Shown: piece after piece, positions 88-23,521 of the stretch
How the letters are laid out: every line of letters begins with the position of its first letter
Numbering within the stretch: the stretch's first letter is position 1
From: Campylobacterales bacterium
Lineage (GTDB): Bacteria; Campylobacterota; Campylobacteria; Campylobacterales; Sulfurimonadaceae
Assembly (NCBI GenBank): GCA_026390115.1
Contig: JAPLGO010000039.1
Location: 1 to 38,030, forward strand
DNA: 38,030 nt
Reading direction: 5' to 3'
Position numbers and translations under genes: made by a program
Notes under the pieces: generated by a model
The model's database searches: none
What the model saw: only the letters and a program-made list of their open reading frames with translations
Told to the model about the DNA's origin: nothing

Positions 88-1671
88 TTAAAGTGTCCGA
101 ATCATTTCGCTGAAGGTGTCCGGATACTCCGCTGTATGCACGTTTGCATTTCCAAGATCTAATATTACTGTTTGACCCTTATCTAATTCAGTTATTATTT
201 CTTTTACAAAATGACTGGCATTCTTATCATGATATTGAATATAAGGTCTAAGCATTGGAGGTCCAGTTCCAGTAGAAGGATTTAAAAATTTTAGTAAAGC
301 TAAATCATCTGGTTCAAAAACAGATTTGCTATCTTTTGTAATCACTTTAGAATCACTGTTTTCAGCGACAAATGTAGCAATTTTATCCAAGTGAATACGA
401 AGCATGTCCAAACTTATTGGAGATGTAAATTCTTCACCTTTATATACTGCTTCAATTATACCTTTATCAAAATGTGGATCAAAATGCGATGGACCATATT
501 TAGTTCCACTAGTTAAACCAAGTTTTTTTAAACTATCTTCATTAGCCGTAAATCCAGCTTTATTTAAAATTGCCCAGTACATTTGAATTTTTCTAATTGA
601 ACGAATTTTTGTGCTACCAATATTCATGGCTTTTATCTCATTTATATTAGGAAGTTCTACACTAGCAAAGCTTTTTACATATTGAGAATTTAAGTTATCT
701 TGATCTAAAAGCTTAGCTAAGATTACTATTGTTGAATCAGGTTGTTCATAGAAATTCAATTTTAATGGTTTAGATGGTGTTTCTTTTCTCGGAGTTAAGG
801 CATACACTAAGCATCGATCTGCATAAGCACTTCTTAGTGAAAAATTTCCATCTTGAGGATTATCGTTTGCATATTCTCCATTTACATCAAAAATGAGTTG
901 ACCAACAGATCTATCATCATCTGTAGTTTCAATCATACTTTGAGCAAGTAATTTGACTATATTACTCTTACCAAGTCTTGTTTTACCAAACATTGCTGTT
1001 CTAAAACCTTTAAAATCATCAGTAGATACTTTAACATCAACATTATAAGTCGGTACATCATGAAAAGGAAGCTGACATTCTGTAAGTCGTAATTTTCCCA
1101 ATGAGAACTGATGGCTTTTCTTTACAATTCCATTTACTATCAGATCTAGGAGCTCATCATTTGGAGAAAATATTTTATAGTGATGTGGGCTTACAATATT
1201 ATTTACATCACCAGAAAATGCTAATTTGTTTGCATCAGATGGATCTGCATAATACATTCCTAGTACAGTAGTAGATAAGGCTCCCCATTGTAACTCGCTT
1301 TGTGTCCATCTATCCAATTCAGGCATTGATTTTTTATGTAATTCAAAATATGTTTGTTGTGTTTCTTGATTAAGAGGTGTTGTAGCGACTCCGTTAACAC
1401 GAAGAAGAGTAAAATGAGGAGGAATTCCTTTGAAGCTCTTAGGGCACATAATAAGATAAGAACCTCGTGGTATACCACCAACAGCTCTTTTGTAAGGATC
1501 AGATGTAATTATTCTAACTTCATCATATCCGATATCAAGGACGTAGCCTACAAATCTCATACTCTCAACATCATCTGCTTTATATAAATTACTTTCATGT
1601 TTTATAAAATCTGTTAGTATCCTCATTGGAGAATTCTGGTACTCAGCTTTTTGCATAAAATTTTGCATCAT
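88..1671 (-). CDS. HerA/FtsK-like ATPase (DUF87 type), probably C-terminally truncated
   Basis: A 527-residue P-loop ATPase of the HerA/FtsK branch. The Walker A motif GKTRLGKSN is near residue 230, and the strand FDVNGEY typical of HerA-like proteins follows near residue 265. Such proteins form hexameric motors that move DNA, often beside a nuclease. The protein stops just after the strand VILDLGNAN near residue 507. Relatives continue into a Walker B 'DEAH'-type segment and a C-terminal arginine finger, which I do not see here. The gene therefore looks broken near its 3' end or has an unusual C-terminus. It starts 11 bp after the Dam methylase stop, so the two are probably cotranscribed. 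Two ATGs are adjacent (1671 and 1668); the AAAGGA ribosome site is better spaced for the second. The truncation is an inference from family knowledge. Confidence 0.7.
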   Translation of the reverse strand: MMQNFMQKAEYQNSPMRILTDFIKHESNLYKADDVESMRFVGYVLDIGYDEVRIITSDPYKRAVGGIPRGSYLIMCPKSFKGIPPHFTLLRVNGVATTPLNQETQQTYFELHKKSMPELDRWTQSELQWGALSTTVLGMYYADPSDANKLAFSGDVNNIVSPHHYKIFSPNDELLDLIVNGIVKKSHQFSLGKLRLTECQLPFHDVPTYNVDVKVSTDDFKGFRTAMFGKTRLGKSNIVKLLAQSMIETTDDDRSVGQLIFDVNGEYANDNPQDGNFSLRSAYADRCLVYALTPRKETPSKPLKLNFYEQPDSTIVILAKLLDQDNLNSQYVKSFASVELPNINEIKAMNIGSTKIRSIRKIQMYWAILNKAGFTANEDSLKKLGLTSGTKYGPSHFDPHFDKGIIEAVYKGEEFTSPISLDMLRIHLDKIATFVAENSDSKVITKDSKSVFEPDDLALLKFLNPSTGTGPPMLRPYIQYHDKNASHFVKEIITELDKGQTVILDLGNANVHTAEYPDTFSEMIRTL

Positions 1672-1682
1672 TTTCCTTTTTT

Positions 1683-2501
1683 TTAGTATGATCTTATGAC
1701 TAACTCACTGTAAGATTTCCGATTCTTGGCTAAGCCAGAGATACTGGTATATCTTGATACTTCAAGTAAACTAAAATCTTTTTCATATAACTCTCTAATC
1801 CTTTCATGATTGGCATTTGTAGCCATAACCAATACACCTCTATTCTTCGCTTCTATAAGCTTATTTGCCAACCTTACTTGATCATCCCATGAAAATAGCT
1901 TTTCATTATATTGTACAAAGCCATTATTATTATGTGTAACGGTATAAGGAGGATCAATGAATAAAAAGTCATTTTTTTGTGCTTTATCAATTGTAGTTTC
2001 AAAATCAGAATGTATTATTTCAGTGTTTTTAAGTGAGTCTGATATTTTTATAAAATCATCATTTTGAAGAAATATTTTATACCTTTCTCCAAATGGAACA
2101 TTGAATTTCCCGCTACTATTTACACGATATATTCCATTAAAGCATGTTCGATTCAGGTATATAAATCTAGCGGCTATTTCTATCTGTGCTCGAGGTTTTT
2201 TATCTCGTATCTCATAATAATATTCTTTTGAATGTTTCTTTGAATGTTTCTTTAATACTTTTAAAATTTTGCTTGGATTTTCCTGCATAGCTTGATATGT
2301 TGTAATTAATTCATAATTAAGATCAGAAAGAATTGCTTTTTTTGGCTCTAAATGAAAATAGACACTACCTCCACCTAAAAAAGCTTCTATGTATGTGTTA
2401 TATTCTTTCGGAAACAGGTCTGAATATTTCGATGTTAACCATCTTTTACCACCAGCCCATCTTAAAAAAGGAGATTGTTTATTTAATATTGTTGTTACCA
2501 T
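1683..2501 (-). CDS. dam: Dam-type (D12 class) adenine-N6 DNA methyltransferase
   Basis: This 272-residue protein should transfer a methyl group from S-adenosylmethionine to adenine N6 in DNA. The cofactor motif FLRWAGGKRWL lies near residues 12-22, FLGGGSVYFHL near 42-52, and the catalytic motif DPPY near residues 184-187. The length and order fit the Dam/M.DpnII group, whose members often recognise GATC; the target here cannot be read from the sequence. It appears complete. The HerA-like ATPase gene follows after 11 bp. The pairing with a DNA motor, next to toxin-antitoxin cassettes, suggests a defence or modification module rather than a housekeeping Dam, but no restriction nuclease gene lies inside the window. 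Confidence 0.85.
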   Translation of the reverse strand: MVTTILNKQSPFLRWAGGKRWLTSKYSDLFPKEYNTYIEAFLGGGSVYFHLEPKKAILSDLNYELITTYQAMQENPSKILKVLKKHSKKHSKEYYYEIRDKKPRAQIEIAARFIYLNRTCFNGIYRVNSSGKFNVPFGERYKIFLQNDDFIKISDSLKNTEIIHSDFETTIDKAQKNDFLFIDPPYTVTHNNNGFVQYNEKLFSWDDQVRLANKLIEAKNRGVLVMATNANHERIRELYEKDFSLLEVSRYTSISGLAKNRKSYSELVIRSY

Positions 2502-2967
2502 AAACTACTTTTATAATAATTATGTTTAATAATTATGTGATTTTTATTGTATGATAATAATAGCTAAAATATCATAGTAATAAAACAATTTTACAAAAGA
2601 ACTAATATAAAAAAGTTATATTAGAAAAATTTATTATCATGGTATAGATTTAAAAAAAATTTAAAGGTGTGCCCAAATTGTGCTCAAAAATAACTAATTA
2701 TGAAGAAATTGAAAGATTTTGATAGAGTTACACAGTCCTTGTTTTCGGTCTTTTGTAGTTTTTATTATGTTATTTAAGAATTTTCAGTATTCGGAGCCAT
2801 ATTATTTTAATTGAATAAAAAATGAGAAAGCTTCCATAGGCTGCAAACACACAAAAATTCAATTAAAGAAGAGTTAAAAAGTATTTTTTACAAATGCTTT
2901 GAAAGAAGTCTAAGTGTCTAATTGTTCCGTGATGAGAACCTCTTGATAGTAAGAAGGCTGCTATACA
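2502..2967. other. Gene-free stretch between the methylase and the first repeat
   Basis: About 470 AT-rich bases without a convincing gene; only a 26-codon frame at 2700 on the plus strand is visible, with no family resemblance. An 11-bp perfect inverted repeat (2806-2816 and 2857-2867) brackets 40 bases. The stretch has about the size of the neighbouring toxin-antitoxin cassettes and could be a decayed cassette. It also must hold the promoter of the methylase operon, which I could not pin down. Confidence 0.4.
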
Positions 2968-3097
2968 GCTGCCAAAACATTTCTAAACGAAATCCTAAAA
3001 CACTCTAAACACCTTAGTAACAAACAGTTCTAAAAAATTTATGTTGCCAAAGTAGAGTGCCTGTACGCCTCGGGCTGGTTTTTATCACAATTATTCT
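2968..3097 (-). repeat. 130-bp cassette repeat, copy 1
   Basis: First of three direct copies (others at 3715-3844 and 4530-4640). The strongest core starts at CCTAAAACAC (2994) and runs 85 bp with only a few mismatches. A conserved GCTGCC-N-AAAC block lies exactly 26 bp before the core start in all three copies. Copies 1 and 2 then share a further identical 19 bases, ending 6 bp from the stop codon of the toxin gene beside each. Inside is an imperfect hairpin TTAGTAAC-AAACA-GTTCTAA. It lies downstream (3') of the toxin-antitoxin pair at 3104-3612. Confidence 0.85.
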
Positions 3098-3103
3098 GTT
3101 AAA

Positions 3104-3376
3104 TTATCTGTCTTGCCACTTAAAAATATCCAAGATTTTAATCTCATCATTTTCAACTTTATAAATTATTGTATAGCCTTTAAATGTTAAATCTCTATAT
3201 TTTGTATCATCAAAATACAGAGATGCTCTACACATAAAAGGAGATTCAAGTAGTAAGTTTATTTTGCCTTTTAAATCTTTATTAAATTGTACGGCAGCAG
3301 ATTTTTTATCTTTTGAGATTGTAGTTAATATTTTTAATAATGGTTCAGAAAAACCTATTTCGATGATAATTTTCAA
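3104..3376 (-). CDS. RelE/ParE-family toxin of a type II toxin-antitoxin pair
   Basis: A 90-residue protein of the size and pattern of the RelE/ParE fold: an N-terminal helical part with a KGKINLLLESP-like segment, then FDDTKYRDLTFKGYTIIYKVENDEIKILDIFKW, a beta-sheet end typical of the family (residues about 54-88). RelE members cut mRNA on the ribosome and ParE members poison gyrase; which applies here cannot be told. It begins 2 bp after the putative antitoxin stop, the usual antitoxin-first arrangement. Its own stop lies 6 bp from repeat copy 1. The family call is fairly secure. Confidence 0.75.
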   Translation of the reverse strand: MKIIIEIGFSEPLLKILTTISKDKKSAAVQFNKDLKGKINLLLESPFMCRASLYFDDTKYRDLTFKGYTIIYKVENDEIKILDIFKWQDR

Positions 3377-3378
3377 AA

Positions 3379-3612
3379 TTATAAGGCTTCTATTTTTTTA
3401 TCCATATCAGTCCAAAATTTATCAGCTGAAATATAATTAGCATTTGATTCTGCTTTTAGAACTCTTCTTTGGACTTCTTCAATTGATGATACTATATAAT
3501 CTTCCTGTTGAGTGTCTTCAATAAGACTTATCTCATTACTTTGAAATTTATTTATAAAAGATAAAACTTGAGAGTATATAGATTCATTAACCTGTAGTTT
3601 TAAAGTATGCAC
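3379..3612 (-). CDS. Putative antitoxin paired with the RelE/ParE toxin
   Basis: A 77-residue acidic protein directly upstream of the toxin gene (2-bp gap). The N-terminal part (TLKLQVNESIYSQVLSFIN) could form a short DNA-binding strand and helix, and the C-terminal half is charged and helical, as expected for a toxin-wrapping tail. The name rests mainly on size, order and neighbour. The start is GTG at 3612, supported by AAAAGG six bases upstream; an out-of-frame ATG overlaps it at 3614. No clear -35/-10 pair was found upstream. Confidence 0.65.
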   Translation of the reverse strand: MHTLKLQVNESIYSQVLSFINKFQSNEISLIEDTQQEDYIVSSIEEVQRRVLKAESNANYISADKFWTDMDKKIEAL

Positions 3613-3714
3613 ATGTAACCTTTTATAAATAAATTTTATTGAGTAATTTTAGCAAAAAGATACAAATATATTTTTGAAACAATCTTATTAGAATAACACT
3701 CTGGCTGTCATAAA

Positions 3715-3844
3715 GCTGCCGAAACCAATCCTCTTAAAAACCTAAAACACTTTAAACACCTTAGTAACAAACAGTTTTAAAAGTATTATGCTACCAAAGT
3801 AGGGTGCCTATAGGCCTCGGGCTGGTTTTTATCACAATTATTCT
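3715..3844 (-). repeat. 130-bp cassette repeat, copy 2
   Basis: Second direct copy of the repeat, aligned without gaps to copy 1 over 130 bp. The 85-bp core (from 3741) differs from copies 1 and 3 at scattered positions, most in the AAGTATTATGCTA part. Its last 19 bases are identical to those of copy 1. It ends 6 bp from the stop codon of the toxin at 3851-4183, exactly as copy 1 does for its toxin. It therefore separates two independent toxin-antitoxin cassettes. Confidence 0.85.
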
Positions 3845-3850
3845 ATATGA

Positions 3851-4183
3851 TTATAGTAAGTCGTTTTCTTTTAAAATAGTTAAAATAGTTTTGTCATCAA
3901 TATTTTCTAGTTCATTTTTTGAGTACATACTCATAAGATATAAGTTGTTATCTTCATCTATGTAGTAATAAATTACTCTAAATCCACCACTTTTCCCTGT
4001 AGGAACTGAACTATTGGCTAGTCTGATTTTATAGCATCCATTACCAAGTTCAATTCCAGACTTTGGGTTTTCAGATAACTCTTCTCTTAATACTTTTAAA
4101 TCGCTTGGAATGTGTTTATATTTTTTAAAAAGTTTTTTAACATCTTTCTCAAAACTACTAAGAGTTTTAATGTTCAAGTTCAT
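3851..4183 (-). CDS. RelE-family toxin of a second type II toxin-antitoxin pair
   Basis: A 110-residue protein with a RelE-like layout: an N-terminal helical hairpin (FEKDVKKLFKKYK), then GCYKIRLANSSVPTGKSGGFRVIYYY, where the basic and aromatic residues correspond to the RNA-contacting sheet of RelE/HigB toxins, and a final strand LYLMSMYSK (about residues 82-91). It is expected to inhibit translation by mRNA cleavage, an inference from the family. The start codon lies inside the antitoxin gene (17-bp overlap), which indicates translational coupling. Its stop is 6 bp from repeat copy 2. It is not a close relative of the toxin in the next cassette. Confidence 0.8.
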   Translation of the reverse strand: MNLNIKTLSSFEKDVKKLFKKYKHIPSDLKVLREELSENPKSGIELGNGCYKIRLANSSVPTGKSGGFRVIYYYIDEDNNLYLMSMYSKNELENIDDKTILTILKENDLL

Positions 4184-4439
4184 TGATTAACTCATCAAGT
4201 GATTTCATAGAAGTTGTATCATTACTATCAAGTGACTTTTTTAATTCCTTAGATGCTATATCAAAATCACTATAAAACATATTAGCTTTTTGCTCACTAA
4301 TATATGATGCAATAGCTTCAATAATTACATCTGTTCTATTGATAGAAAATTGATTAGTAAAAGCATCTATTTCTTCTAACAAGTATTTAGGTAGTCGTAA
4401 ACCAACTTGTTGCTTTTCTAATTGAGAAATTGAATGCAT
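4167..4439 (-). CDS. Ribbon-helix-helix antitoxin of the second pair
   Basis: A 90-residue protein with an N-terminal ribbon-helix-helix motif: QQVGLRLPKYLLEEIDAFTN, then a second helix starting NRTDVIIEAIASYI (residues about 34-47). Such domains bind operator DNA as dimers and repress their own promoter. The acidic C-terminal tail probably covers the toxin. It overlaps the toxin gene by 17 bp. The ribosome site AAGGAG lies six bases before the ATG, and a nearly perfect sigma-70 promoter lies just upstream, so the cassette carries its own expression signals. Confidence 0.8.
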   Translation of the reverse strand: MHSISQLEKQQVGLRLPKYLLEEIDAFTNQFSINRTDVIIEAIASYISEQKANMFYSDFDIASKELKKSLDSNDTTSMKSLDELINELEH

Positions 4440-4529: not shown

Positions 4530-4640
4530 GCTGCCTAAACACATTCTCTCAGAAACCTAAAACACTTTAAACACCTTAGTAACAAACAGTTCTAAAAAAT
4601 TTATGCCGCCAAAGTAGAGTGCCTGTACGCCTCCGGCTGA
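4530..4640 (-). repeat. Cassette repeat, copy 3, joined to the uvrB stub
   Basis: Third copy: GCTGCC-N-AAAC at 4530, core from 4556 to about 4640. It matches copy 1 over the 85-bp core with only a handful of differences. Instead of the 19-base end seen in the other copies it runs into uvrB coding sequence. The bases CAGCC(C/G)GAGGCGTAC, which encode Gln-Pro-Glu-Ala-Tyr in uvrB, are also present with one change in copy 1 and similarly in copy 2, so the repeat and the uvrB break share a short common sequence. Confidence 0.85.
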
Positions 4641-4933
4641 TAATAATCATAATAGGAGACAAAGTACTCAACATGGTTGTTCGGAAAGAACTGACGAAAT
4701 TCACTGTAAAGCTGAGCAGCTAAAGTTTTGTTATGTGTCATGATGATTGTAGGCATCTGAACATTCTCTATAACACGCGCCATAGTGTGCGTTTTACCGC
4801 TTCCCGTGACACCTTCAAGCGTTTGGTAACGATTACCTTTTAGAATGCTGTTTGTGAGTTCTTTGATTGCAGTCGGCTGGTCTCCCGCAGGAGAATAATC
4901 TGATATTACTTTAAAATTTGCTTCTTTTTTCAT
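4601..4933 (-). pseudogene. uvrB: 5' fragment of uvrB (excinuclease ABC subunit B)
   Basis: The first 103 codons match the N-terminus of UvrB, the DNA-loading helicase of nucleotide excision repair: [17 protein letters not shown], the Walker A motif GVTGSGKT (about residues 41-48), [14 protein letters not shown] and [10 protein letters not shown]. The family then continues with IPRTD-type sequence for more than 500 residues, but here the frame reads RHSTLAA and stops, inside repeat copy 3. The break is at about 4624. The fragment keeps its start and a plausible promoter, so it is the original 5' end rather than a random copy. The rest of the gene is not in the window; it may lie beyond the left edge or an intact copy may exist elsewhere. 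Confidence 0.9.
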
Positions 4934-11410: not shown

Positions 11411-11520
11411 ATCTCTCAGCGTCAATGTTTCTTGATGTTTTAACTTTATTTTATTTCAGCGTCTATTACGTCGTCCACTGTTCTAGATGTTTCATCTTAC
11501 TCTATCTCAGCATCTATAAC
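11406..11520 (-). repeat. Decayed tandem duplications of the dnaK 3' end
   Basis: The last codons of dnaK (DDVIDAEIE-stop, ending at 11497) are repeated downstream with a period of about 51 bp. In the same frame after the dnaK stop, the next 16 codons read [16 protein letters not shown] followed by a stop at 11446-11448. A third, partial copy (IDAE-like bases, ATTGACGCTGAGAGATAGAGTAA on the minus strand written in two parts) lies at about 11406-11428 and carries a 2-base insertion. The copies differ by several substitutions, so the duplication is old. Confidence 0.8.
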
Positions 11521-13383
11521 GTCGTCCTCTTCTTTTTTCTTTTTAGTGTCTGCTTCGCCGCTTGGAGCACCTTCTTCTTTTTTGTACATTTGCTCTGCCA
11601 TTTTGTGACTTGCTTCTGTGAGAGTTTTTACTTTTGCTTCAATTTGCTCTTTTGTAGCATTTGTATCTTTGAGAGTATCTTTAAGTTCAGTTATTGCACT
11701 TTCAATTTTTGCTTTTTCCTCAGCAGAAATTTTTTCACCGATTTCACCTAGTGATTTTTCAGTTTGAGCGATAAGTGCATCCGCCTGATTTTTAAGGTCA
11801 ACTAACGCTTTTCTTTTTGAATCTTCAGCTTTGTGAGCTTCAGCATCTTGAACCATTTTGTTAATCTCTTCTTCGCTTAATCCAGAACTTCCGCTAATTG
11901 TGATTGATTGAGATTTTCCAGTGCCTTTATCAGTCGAGCTAACAGTTAAAATACCGTTTGCATCGATGTCAAAAGTTACTTCAATCTGAGGAACACCTCT
12001 TGGAGCTGCAGCAATATTCCCTAGTTCAAATAAACCTAAAGATTTGTTGTCTTTTGCAAACTCTCTCTCACCTTGAACAACCGAGATACTAACAGCTGGC
12101 TGATTGTCCTCTGCAGTTGAGAAAACTTGAGATTTTTTAACAGGAATTGTCGTGCCTTTTTCGATGATTTTCGTAGCAATTCCACCTAAAGTTTCAATTC
12201 CAAGAGACAATGGAGTGACATCTAAAAGAAGTACATCTTTAACATCTCCTCTTAAAACTCCACCTTGAATGGCTGCACCGGCTGCAACAACTTCATCAGG
12301 ATTTACGCTTTTGTTCAGGTTTTTTCCACCAAAGTAATCAGAAACCATTTTTTGTGCCAATGGAACACGGATAGAACCACCAACCATAATAATCTCTTTG
12401 ATAGCATTGTTATCTAAACCAGACTCTTTCATAGCTGTTTTGATGTGGTCAATCGTCTCTTTTACAAGACTTTCAATCATTCCCTCAAACTTAGCACGAG
12501 TAAGTTTGAGAACCAAGTGTTGCGGTCCAGCTTCTGTCATAGTGATAAACGGCAGGTTAATCTCAGTTTCAGTAGATGAACTTAACTCTTTTTTAGCATT
12601 TTCAGCAGCATCTTTTAATCTTTGAAGTGCCATTTTGTCATTCTTGAGGTCGATTCCATGTGAGCTTTTGAACTCAGCATTGAGATAATCTACAATTTTA
12701 TTGTCAAAGTCATCTCCACCTAGAAATGCGTTACCATCCGTTGAGAGAACCTCAAAAGTACCATCAGAAATCTCTAAAACAGTAACATCAAATGTACCGC
12801 CTCCAAGGTCATAAACAAGTACATTCTCTTCAGCTTTGCTCTCTAAACCGTATGCAAGTGCAGAAGCAGTCGGTTCATTGATAATACGAAGAACATTGAG
12901 TCCTGCGATTGTTCCGGCATCTTTCGTAGCCTTTCTTTGTGCATCATTGAAGTAAGCAGGAACTGTAATAACCGCATCCGTTACCGTTGAACCTAAATAA
13001 CTCTCGGCATCTGCTTTTAGTTTTGATAAAATTTTAGCCGATATCTCTTGTGGTGTGTAAATTTTACCATCTACATTTACGGCAGCCATTCCATCTTTGT
13101 CAACTATATTATAAGTTACTTTGTCATGCGCTGCTTTCGCATTCTCTTCACTCATCATCAGACCCATAATTCTTTTGATAGAAGAGATGGTTTTGTGTGG
13201 GTTTGTAATTGCTTGTCGTTTTGCAGGGTCTCCTACTAAAACTTCACCTTTGTCTGTAAACGCTACAACGGAAGGAGTTGTGTTCTTACCTTCTTTATTA
13301 GGGATGATTTTTGCTTCCCCTCCCTCATAAACTGCTACACATGAATTTGTTGTTCCTAAATCTATACCTATTACTTTGCTCAT
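11497..13383 (-). CDS. dnaK: Chaperone DnaK (Hsp70)
   Basis: A 628-residue Hsp70. The ATPase domain (about 1-380) carries [13 protein letters not shown] (residues 5-17), the phosphate loop [14 protein letters not shown] and [10 protein letters not shown] (Ile replaces the usual Thr). The substrate domain follows, with a helical lid and the C-terminal tail VIDAEIE typical of bacterial DnaK. It folds proteins in an ATP-driven cycle with GrpE and a J-protein. It lies 154 bp after grpE and is probably transcribed from the HAIR-controlled promoter at 14140-14169. The ribosome site AAAGGAAA precedes the ATG. The sequence just past its stop holds decayed copies of its own 3' end. Confidence 0.98.
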
Positions 13384-13537: not shown

Positions 13538-14101
13538 CTAATTCGCGACGACTACCATCGCTTCACGAAGTGGTCTCTCTTTATACTTATAGCCCGTTTG
13601 AAAAGTTTGAACAATCTGCCCACTCTCAACCGTATCACTGTCAATACTCTGAATGGCATTGTGAATGTTTGGATCAAATGGCTCATCATGTGCAACCATT
13701 GTCACACCATGTTTTTCCAAAGCGGTAGTTAGCTGCTTGAGTGTCAACTGCATTCCCTCTTTAATCTTTTCAATTAATTCACTTGGCTCCGCGTTAGATG
13801 TTGCAGAAGCTATTGCCATCTGAAGTGAATCCATAACTGGAATCATATCTTTTGCGAATTTCTCGTTTGAGTACTCAACGGCCGTATATTTTTCTCTCTC
13901 TAATCTTTTTTTGATGTTGTCAAAATCAGCATGAACTCTGGCATATTTATCTTTTAATGCTACAAGCTCCTCTTGTAAGAGATCGAACTCATTTTCAACA
14001 GCTACCGCTTCAGCTTCCGCCTCATCGTTAGTCAGTTCTTTGTTAACCTCTTCTTGCAGGGGTTCTTTTTGTAATTCATCTTTTTTTGATTGTTGTGACA
14101 T
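13538..14101 (-). CDS. grpE: Nucleotide exchange factor GrpE
   Basis: A 187-residue GrpE: an acidic N-terminal tail, a long coiled coil (about residues 35-95, ending in DFDNIKKRLEREK), and the C-terminal beta domain with EKHGVTMVAHDEPFDPNIHNAI and the end GYKYKERPLREAMVVVAN. As a dimer it opens DnaK to release ADP. The upstream hrcA gene found before grpE in Campylobacter and Helicobacter is absent here; the operon starts with grpE. GGAG lies 13 bases before the ATG, a rather long spacing. It is controlled by the HAIR-like promoter just upstream. Confidence 0.95.
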   Translation of the reverse strand: MSQQSKKDELQKEPLQEEVNKELTNDEAEAEAVAVENEFDLLQEELVALKDKYARVHADFDNIKKRLEREKYTAVEYSNEKFAKDMIPVMDSLQMAIASATSNAEPSELIEKIKEGMQLTLKQLTTALEKHGVTMVAHDEPFDPNIHNAIQSIDSDTVESGQIVQTFQTGYKYKERPLREAMVVVAN

Positions 14102-14139: not shown

Positions 14140-14169
14140 ATTATACATATTGAGCGTAACAATGTCAAG
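14140..14169 (-). promoter_or_regulatory. grpE-dnaK promoter with HAIR-like HspR operator
   Basis: On the minus strand TTGACA (14168-14163), a 17-base spacer and TATAAT (14145-14140) form a perfect sigma-70 promoter. CTTGACA-N7-GCTCAAT (14169-14149) overlaps the -35 and spacer. It matches the HAIR consensus CTTGAGT-N7-ACTCAAG at 5 of 7 bases in each half with exact spacing. HspR, encoded at 23138, should repress here in the absence of heat stress. Confidence 0.75.
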
Positions 14170-14301
14170 TGAAACTTTAGTATGGTAAGTAAGATAAGTT
14201 TAGTCTATCCTTATCAAGTATGTCTTTTGCTGCAATATACTCCAACTAAATACAATATATTAACATAATAATTCATTTTTAGTTTAAAATAAATTTGCCT
14301 T

Positions 14302-22181: not shown

Positions 22182-22216
22182 CTTGATTGACATCCACTCA
22201 ACCCTTATGATATAAT
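22182..22216 (+). promoter_or_regulatory. cbpA-hspR promoter with HAIR operator
   Basis: CTTGATT-N7-ACTCAAC (22182-22202) matches the HAIR consensus at 5 of 7 and 6 of 7 bases with exact spacing. It overlaps the -35 TTGACA (22187-22192). TATAAT with an extended TG (22208-22216) follows after 18 bases. This is where HspR should repress its own operon. Confidence 0.8.
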
Positions 22217-22261: not shown

Positions 22262-23134
22262 ATGGCTAAATCGTTATATGAAACTCTTGAAATCACAGAG
22301 AGTGCAACAGAAGCAGAGATAAAAAAAGCGTATAGAAAACTTGCAAGAAAGTACCATCCGGATATAAATAAAGAGCCGACGGCCGAAGAAAAATTTAAAG
22401 AGATAAATGCGGCCTATGAGATACTAAGCGACAAAGATAAAAAGGCTCAGTACGACAGAGTAGGCGACAACATGTTTGGCGGACAGAATTTTCATGATTT
22501 TTCTCGCTCACACCGAGGTGCAGGAAATGCAGATTTGGACGAAATTTTAAGAAGCATGTTCTCGGGCGGCGGCGGTTTTGGAGGAGGTTTCGGCGGAGGC
22601 TTTGGCGGAGGAGGTTCTCCTCACAAACAGCCAAATCTTGATATAGAAACAAATGTGACCGTACCGTTCGTTGTCTCAATTCTTGGAGGTTCACACTCAG
22701 TATCCGTGAATGGAGAGAGATTCGATATAAAAATTCCAGCGGGCATTAAAAGCGGCGAAAAAATGCGTGTTAAAGGCAAAGGACATGCACAGGGCGGGCG
22801 AGCAGGGGATTTATTTTTAAAAATAACAGTTGCTTCAAACCCTGAATATGTAAGAGAAGAGGATGACTTGGTGAAGAGTTTTGATGCACCTCTCTATGCT
22901 GCGCTATTTGGAGAAAAAGTCACAATTGCAACTTTAGAAAAAGAGATAAAGCTAAATATTCCGGCAAATACTAAAAACGGACAGAGATTCCGTGTGAAAG
23001 GGATGGGTGCCATGAACCGAAAAACTAATGTTCGAGGTGATTTGTATTTAAAAGCAAATATTGTACTGCCAAAGGTTGAAAATTTGGATGAAGAGTTGGT
23101 TAAAGTTATGAAAGAAAAACTGCCTAAGGAGTAA
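22262..23134 (+). CDS. cbpA: J-domain co-chaperone CbpA (DnaJ class without zinc finger)
   Basis: A 290-residue J-protein. The J domain (residues 1-68) has the HPD triad in KYHPDINK near residue 33. A Gly/Phe-rich linker follows (about 100-120). The two C-terminal beta domains (about 125-285) hold KIPAGIKSGEKMRVKGKG and LNIPANTKNGQRFRVKGMG. There are no CxxCxGxG zinc repeats, so it is CbpA rather than DnaJ. It stimulates the DnaK ATPase. It is followed by hspR after 3 bp, and the pair matches the cbpA-hspR operon of Helicobacter and Campylobacter. The ribosome site AGGA lies about eight bases before the ATG. Confidence 0.95.
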   Translation: MAKSLYETLEITESATEAEIKKAYRKLARKYHPDINKEPTAEEKFKEINAAYEILSDKDKKAQYDRVGDNMFGGQNFHDFSRSHRGAGNADLDEILRSMFSGGGGFGGGFGGGFGGGGSPHKQPNLDIETNVTVPFVVSILGGSHSVSVNGERFDIKIPAGIKSGEKMRVKGKGHAQGGRAGDLFLKITVASNPEYVREEDDLVKSFDAPLYAALFGEKVTIATLEKEIKLNIPANTKNGQRFRVKGMGAMNRKTNVRGDLYLKANIVLPKVENLDEELVKVMKEKLPKE

Positions 23135-23137
23135 CAA

Positions 23138-23521
23138 GTGATGCATCAGTATGAAGAGCCGGTATATCTTATAAGCATAGTTGCTAAAATTTTGGAGATA
23201 CATCCTCAGACTTTAAGACAGTATGAGAGAGAAAATCTTGTTTGTCCCTCAAGATCCAACGGCCGGATTAGACTCTACTCTCAAAGAGATATTGACAGAA
23301 TTAAGCTTATTTTGAGACTTACCCGTGAACTTGGTGTAAACTTGGCAGGAGTTGATATTATTTTGAGATTAAAAGAGAATGTCGATGAGATGGAACAGGA
23401 TATTTTGGATTTAAGACGCGAAGTGACGAAAGCAAAAAGCGGATCTTCAGTCTCTCCTGATAAGGCGCTTGTTACTAAAAAAAGTATTTATGACATGATT
23501 ATATTTGAAGAGAAGAAGTGA
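23138..23521 (+). CDS. hspR: Heat shock repressor HspR (MerR family)
   Basis: A 127-residue MerR-family regulator. The winged helix-turn-helix covers YLISIVAKILEIHPQTLRQYERENLVCPSRSNGRIRLYSQRDIDRI (two parts, residues about 8-53), typical of HspR. A coiled segment (VDEMEQDILDLRREV) follows. HspR binds HAIR sequences and represses chaperone operons until heat titrates its DnaK co-repressor. AGGAG serves either the GTG at 23138 or the ATG at 23141. It lies 3 bp after cbpA. Two HAIR-like sites are in the window. The stop lies 6 bp from the convergent murA stop. Confidence 0.95.
   Translation: MMHQYEEPVYLISIVAKILEIHPQTLRQYERENLVCPSRSNGRIRLYSQRDIDRIKLILRLTRELGVNLAGVDIILRLKENVDEMEQDILDLRREVTKAKSGSSVSPDKALVTKKSIYDMIIFEEKK

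Follow-up and report, generated by a model that had tools for sequence, protein, structure and literature searches.

The promoter of the grpE-dnaK operon in this Sulfurimonas species carries, in our estimate with a probability of about 0.82, an operator for the heat-shock repressor HspR, in a family whose genomes yield no detectable HrcA. The operator lies in the window, which is the whole 38,030-nucleotide stretch of DNA that was analysed. We refer to the family of the window as f1, whose nearest named record is a Sulfurimonas sp. with a GrpE that is 98% identical. The other f codes and the g codes used below label further families and genera, and f1 alone is linked to a named record. Binding of HspR, occupancy of an array of sites and heat derepression of grpE-dnaK are events that we infer from the sequence comparisons described below.

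On the minus strand, positions 14169 to 14140 read CTTGACA-TTGTTAC-GCTCAAT-ATG-TATAAT. The left arm of the core HAIR-like operator provides the -35 box, the C at 14169 stands directly 5′ of this box, and the right arm falls inside the 17-base spacer between the -35 and -10 boxes (14162-14146). The relevant features of the window, in order of position, are:

11497-13383, minus strand: dnaK (Pfam HSP70, 814 bits; NCBIfam DnaK above its cut-off)
13538-14101, minus strand: grpE (Pfam GrpE, 155.6 bits)
14140-14145, minus strand: -10 box TATAAT, at a 17-base spacer from the -35 box
14149-14169, minus strand: core HAIR-like operator CTTGACATTGTTACGCTCAAT, right arm conserved in 130/130 f1 loci
14163-14168, minus strand: -35 box TTGACA, part of TTGACA-N17-TATAAT
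14175-14195, minus strand: weak middle HAIR-like site ATCTTACTTACCATACTAAAG, offset -26, score 9/14, near the shuffled mean
14198-14218, minus strand: upstream HAIR-like site CTTGATAAGGATAGACTAAAC, offset -49 bp from the core site
22182-22202, plus strand: HAIR-like site CTTGATTGACATCCACTCAAC of the cbpA-hspR promoter, differing from CTTGA-N11-TCAAG by at most one base
22187-22192 and 22211-22216, plus strand: -35 box TTGACA and -10 box TATAAT of the cbpA-hspR promoter, with an 18-base spacer
22262-23134, plus strand: cbpA, encoding a DnaJ-type co-chaperone with DnaJ and DnaJ_C domains
23138-23521, plus strand: hspR, encoding a MerR-type heat-shock repressor (NCBIfam NF047375 HspR equivalog, 116.5 bits at a cut-off of 105)

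A preliminary description of this DNA had CTTGACA-N7-GCTCAAT spanning a perfect promoter, TTGACA-N17-TATAAT, ahead of a grpE-dnaK operon that lacks hrcA. The operator is indeed present on the minus strand at 14169-14149, and the promoter, which matches the sigma-70 consensus at every base, is the sole zero-mismatch TTGACA-N17-TATAAT in the window. The operon is without hrcA, as had been claimed, and the upstream neighbour of grpE is a comF-like gene (a weak match, below cut-off). Compared with the HAIR consensus CTTGAGT-N7-ACTCAAG, as quoted in PMC7464140, CTTGACATTGTTACGCTCAAT agrees at 10 of the 14 fixed bases and has exactly the same 21-bp spacing.

The number of motif matches is not significant by itself. 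CTTGA-N11-TCAAG with at most one mismatch is found twice in the window versus 2.03 matches expected, and these two matches are exactly the grpE promoter and the cbpA-hspR promoter. Throughout the genome of this organism, the same pattern has 99 matches versus 85 for a reversed control pattern and is therefore hardly enriched, and the nomination of further HspR targets from the bare motif was rejected on these numbers. Among the matches listed, 15 were inspected, and the only perfect one of those listed (C8:129440) sits inside a long reading frame.

A more informative result comes from an anchored test, wherein promoters were located by their -35 and -10 boxes alone and the right arm (xCTnA) was then sought at a fixed spacer offset. 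The regions used were those upstream of grpE in HrcA-less genomes and upstream of hrcA in HrcA-bearing genomes. The right arm is present at this fixed offset in 130 of 130 f1 grpE loci (sets of 50 and 80, which may share organisms and which comprise 27 and 21 distinct promoters), as compared with 6 of 345 equally strong other promoters of the fetched loci. Three of these six are themselves grpE or hrcA promoters outside the upstream set (L223, L200 and L203), and they are also the 3 of 30 control promoters with an arm at the stricter score of at least 11. The strict pattern, with a CTTGA left arm somewhere upstream, is found in 49/50 and 79/80 f1 loci. Within f1 the whole promoter spacer is conserved, and the right arm is no exception. 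In the pooled families (94 distinct promoters) it persists next to seven inter-arm bases that vary, which sets the right arm apart. Thus, the core HAIR on the grpE promoter is judged to be real because it is conserved at a fixed offset across the loci of the family, and not because of the motif count. This comparative test was decisive, and confirms the site as a conserved sequence element.

The core site is accompanied by others that together form an array of approximately 70 bp. Among 50 f1 loci, the best upstream HAIR-like site is located at -49 in 45 and at -50 in three, with a mean score of 11.1/14 versus 8.8 for shuffled sequences. The columns of the middle site are partly conserved (-24/-23/-21 and -12/-10/-8/-7). 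When 90 f1 sequences with mutual identity below 80% are aligned on the core site, conservation starts sharply near -52 and continues through the -10 box. The array is about as long as the operator of H. pylori, which exceeds 70 bp and is modelled, in the accessible part of the report, as binding three HspR dimers (PMC6102357). Its length is also close to the span of the HspR-protected region from -16 to -111 of C. jejuni Phrc, as described in the portion of that study available (PMC7464140), if grpE transcription is assumed to start about 7 bases after the -10 box, as we presume.

The grpE-dnaK, cbpA-hspR and clpB promoters of this genome all carry HAIR-like sites. The hspR gene resides in the window 9 kb from the grpE promoter and is preceded by a HAIR-like promoter of its own. 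HspR was found in 27 of 27 sampled f1 genomes and in 293 of 298 genomes of the phylum sample. The cbpA-hspR promoter carries the HAIR motif in 26 of 27 f1 loci as scored by script, and the motif of the 27th (L318) is visible on reading. A perfect promoter overlain by CTTGACA-N7-ACTCAAA precedes clpB in this genome (L348), and the motif is carried by the clpB promoter in all 13 f1 loci read, this genome included.

The region upstream of groES in this genome has no HAIR (score 10; shuffles have a mean of 9.3 and a maximum of 12) and no CIRCE (the best match has 6 mismatches). Retrieval of groES succeeded in 21 of the 24 f1 genomes queried, and one of these 21 upstream regions is too short to read. 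A HAIR-like site before the -35 box is kept in 13 of the 20 readable regions and absent in seven, as defined by a score of at least 11, a threshold that overlaps the top of single shuffles. By eye, three of the HAIR-less regions (L290 of G099, L291 of G139 and L292 of G136) have a repeated ATTTACC/ATTTACT near -10, which possibly reflects a different control.

The search for HrcA required some care in the choice of model. PF01628 found no HrcA in the genome of this organism (0/1) and, across 151 f1 genomes (117 of which have a completeness of 90% or more and a contamination of 5% or less), produced one weak match below the cut-off (G142, 20.3 bits). This model is too insensitive for Campylobacterota HrcA. 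Therefore, its zero was replaced by the result of a profile made from HrcA proteins of the phylum. TIGR00331 had matches in 223 of the 298 phylum genomes, every one below its cut-off (0/298 above), and in none of 27 f1 genomes. The phylum-specific profile, which was built from 23 Campylobacterota HrcA proteins, matched 0 of 151 f1 genomes, G142 included, and found 4 of 4 positive controls, two from within the profile (G165 and G182) and two from outside it (G274 and G282). From the 48 non-f1 genomes missed by TIGR00331 it retrieved two, a relic with stops (G277) and a fragment (G228). The 46 HrcA-less non-f1 genomes are distributed over f4 (19), f2 g19 (17), f3 g26 (4), f2 g45 (2), f5 g22 (2) and f9 (2).

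The CIRCE element TTAGCACTC-N9-GAGTGCTAA has no match in the window with three or fewer mismatches, and the pattern typical of the phylum has none in the genome with two or fewer. Over 27 f1 genomes, the CIRCE-like pattern gives 15 matches versus 18 for the control pattern, which is background; in HrcA-bearing f7 genomes the corresponding values are, for example, 10 versus 0 (G158) and 13 versus 0 (G421), with palindromic sites counted on both strands in these genome-wide counts. Such counts are an unclean marker of HrcA, and we relied on them for this genome and f1 only. HrcA-less g19 has 66 matches versus 20 in 17 genomes, HrcA-less f4 has 18 versus 7 in 19 genomes, and some HrcA-bearing genomes, such as G187, G212 and G218, are without any match.

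At individual promoters, where the pattern is clean, CIRCE was scored by the mismatch count of the best match. The f1 grpE promoters have 4 to 8 mismatches (50 loci; shuffled mean 6.6), which is again background, and 29 other HrcA-less loci have 5 to 8. Among HrcA-bearing loci, the values are 0 in 5/5 for f7, 0 to 2 in 14/14 for f3, 1 to 2 in 6/6 for f8 and 1 to 4 in 21/21 for f2, with weaker matches in f11 (4, 5), f12 (6) and f5 (3 to 5). The absence of CIRCE noted in the preliminary description is thus upheld in the window and at the promoters of the family, and a search of the genome for an hrcA gene or CIRCE located elsewhere uncovered neither. Its suggestion of control by HspR alone fits at the genome level, given these results and the nearby hspR gene. 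Separately, we noticed by eye that HrcA-less f4 loci L205, L208, L209, L212 and L214 have a GCAttt...TGC inverted repeat just after -10, which is possibly a relic of CIRCE.

Three other explanations for the grpE promoter deserve consideration. HspR might share it with a second repressor that has escaped detection, either a divergent HrcA or some other protein that binds CIRCE, as suggested by the insensitivity of PF01628, the sub-cut-off match in G142 and the failure of TIGR00331 to exceed its cut-off in any phylum genome. However, the 23-protein profile that recovers every positive control, two from outside its own membership among them, is silent throughout f1. Likewise, f1 grpE promoters have no CIRCE-like site of the quality seen in HrcA-bearing f7, and the best match at groES of this genome is likewise poor. 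We therefore view such a repressor as quite improbable. It can also be argued that grpE has a strong constitutive sigma-70 promoter only, and that the TTGACA box by itself accounts for its likeness to HAIR. Most of the matching left-arm bases are the -35 box itself, the motif count of the window is at chance, and conservation of the spacer in f1 extends beyond the right arm. Set against these facts are the retention of the right arm across families whose inter-arm bases vary, and the near absence of this arm from control promoters, half of the few exceptions being grpE or hrcA promoters. This makes a purely constitutive promoter very improbable. The least probable proposal is an additional RNA thermometer in the grpE-dnaK leader, for which nothing speaks beyond the existence of a leader. 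It was rejected because the predicted fold of 14134-14050 (-3.94 kcal/mol) is no better than those of shuffled sequences (z 0.26) and leaves the AGGAG stretch unpaired.

The interpretation of the site as an HspR operator is favoured by the anchored test (130/130 versus 6/345), the lack of HrcA (0/151), the background level of CIRCE in f1, the presence of HspR (27/27), and the motif on the clpB (13/13) and cbpA-hspR (26/27) promoters. As expected for an HspR regulon, HspR is encoded here and a HAIR with exact 21-bp spacing lies at the promoter, while the marks of an HrcA/CIRCE regulon are missing, with no hrcA in this or the 151 f1 genomes and no CIRCE at the promoter. Counting against it are the 10/14 fit to the consensus, the weak middle site, the 99 versus 85 matches genome-wide and some observations from other families presented below.

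Loci from outside f1 were picked to spread over families rather than at random, and 29 of the 46 HrcA-less non-f1 genomes were counted. The right arm lies in the spacer in 25 of these 29 (f4 9/11, f9 2/2, f2 g19 8/8, f2 g45 2/2, f3 g26 4/4 and f5 g22 0/2). Among HrcA-bearing loci, it is present in 34/34 of those with HspR in f3, f6, f7, f8 and f10-f13, in 1/21 of f2 (2/21 by the strict pattern) and in 0/3 of f5. The hrcA-relic genomes G228 and G277, and also G331, carry the right arm and stand outside the count. Two f7 genomes with HrcA and without an HspR match (G189 and G351, the latter represented by locus L359) lack the right arm (0/2), as compared with its presence in 5/5 other f7 loci, and we count this reciprocal case in favour of an HspR operator. 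One of them, G189 (L358), keeps an intact perfect promoter without the arm, flanked by two CIRCE-like sites. The points against are that f4 genomes G314 (L217/L360), G331 (L361) and G412 (L208) keep the HAIR promoter with neither an HspR match nor HrcA, that the HAIR spacer of two f4 loci has six bases and not seven, and that f5 is without a core HAIR whether HrcA is present or not (0/5 loci) and has its HAIR-like site at -46.

With f2 and f5 set aside, the HrcA-bearing loci place HAIR on the core promoter and, directly behind the -10 box, a CIRCE-like repeat (degenerate in f11). In f2, such loci mostly have CIRCE ahead of the -10 box, with a HAIR-like site lying farther upstream, a layout that resembles the one described for H. 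pylori. From this layout, we take f2 to be Helicobacter-like. The preliminary description had contrasted this operon with that of Helicobacter, which it portrayed as starting with hrcA and obeying both repressors. That contrast needs to be widened, in that HAIR on the core promoter is common among the phylum loci read, including those with HrcA, and f2 and f5 are the exceptions. In f2 g19 loci L191-L195 and L197, a second promoter-like stretch ending in TTGCTAAAAT was seen by eye downstream of the HAIR promoter.

HrcA presence changes repeatedly across the phylum. On a GrpE tree of 71 rows, which is short (153 columns), has weak deep branches and labels the two relic genomes HrcA-negative, 10 changes of the HrcA label are required, and well-supported branches force 7 or more of them. 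Because HrcA-bearing families also have HAIR on the core promoter, with CIRCE after it, this position of HAIR is most simply ancestral. The ancestral promoter would have had HAIR plus CIRCE just after -10, and loss of hrcA would have been followed by decay of CIRCE. Most likely, f1 lost HrcA and CIRCE and retained HAIR, with loss rather than gain as the probable direction. We lean towards a broader proposal of an ancestral double lock whose two halves, HspR and HrcA, can be separated, with HrcA dropped often, HspR dropped in a few f7 genomes, and groESL having left both in part of Sulfurimonas. Losses of HrcA nearly always leave HAIR on the promoter, and the few f7 genomes keep CIRCE instead.

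If the grpE site is an HspR operator, HspR dimers would occupy the array approximately 25 bp apart, strongly at -49, weakly at -26 and strongly at 0. Since the promoter-proximal HAIR covers the -35 box and spacer, HspR bound there would block RNA polymerase. Heat or protein damage would cause release of HspR, and grpE-dnaK, cbpA-hspR and clpB would be derepressed.

This arrangement has parallels in known systems. According to the available text on the C. jejuni circuit (Phrc, Pgro, Pcbp and Pclp; PMC7464140), HspR uses multiple 21-bp HAIR-like sites, as here, and overlaps the core promoters of Pcbp and Pclp. C. jejuni additionally has HrcA, a cooperating partner of HspR that occupies a CIRCE-like site at the start site, whereas our searches here turned up neither hrcA nor CIRCE. 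The H. pylori cbpA-hspR operon is described, in the accessible part of the report, as being under HspR alone, which binds near the start site (PMC6102357); the present genome differs from H. pylori in having HAIR over the core promoter of grpE-dnaK and in yielding no hrcA in our searches. In a system of a different phylum, the dnaK operon is likewise under HspR, via three HAIR copies. A survey of proteostasis in acidophiles states that HrcA is absent in Epsilonproteobacteria acidophiles and names Sulfurimonas in the next sentence, and its text contains no mention of HspR (PMC10490939). In vent metagenomes, hspR is present in all samples and hrcA is assigned to Nautiliales, as far as the available text of that study extends (PMC10696704). 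Among the papers listed by our literature search, judged mostly by title and opening of the abstract, none deals with HspR control in the Sulfurimonas family.

Elsewhere in the window, a 110-residue frame at 4601-4933 (minus strand) resembles, by eye, only the N-terminal part of UvrB. Beside it, at 88-4439, are an apparent ATPase gene, a gene resembling DNA adenine methylases and short frames of toxin-antitoxin type. Possibly, a mobile element or a defence locus has inserted at uvrB here.

Heat-shock models for the phylum rest on H. pylori and C. jejuni, in which two repressors act together. A family that apparently runs its dnaK operon with HspR only is equivalent to a natural deletion of the co-repressor, which permits one to ask what HrcA adds and suggests what the ancestral promoter layout may have been. 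It also predicts which chaperone genes stand outside the heat-shock response, namely groESL in some Sulfurimonas. Under the proposed double lock, groESL would lie outside both repressors in part of this genus, the present genome included, and the two chaperone machines would no longer be co-regulated there.
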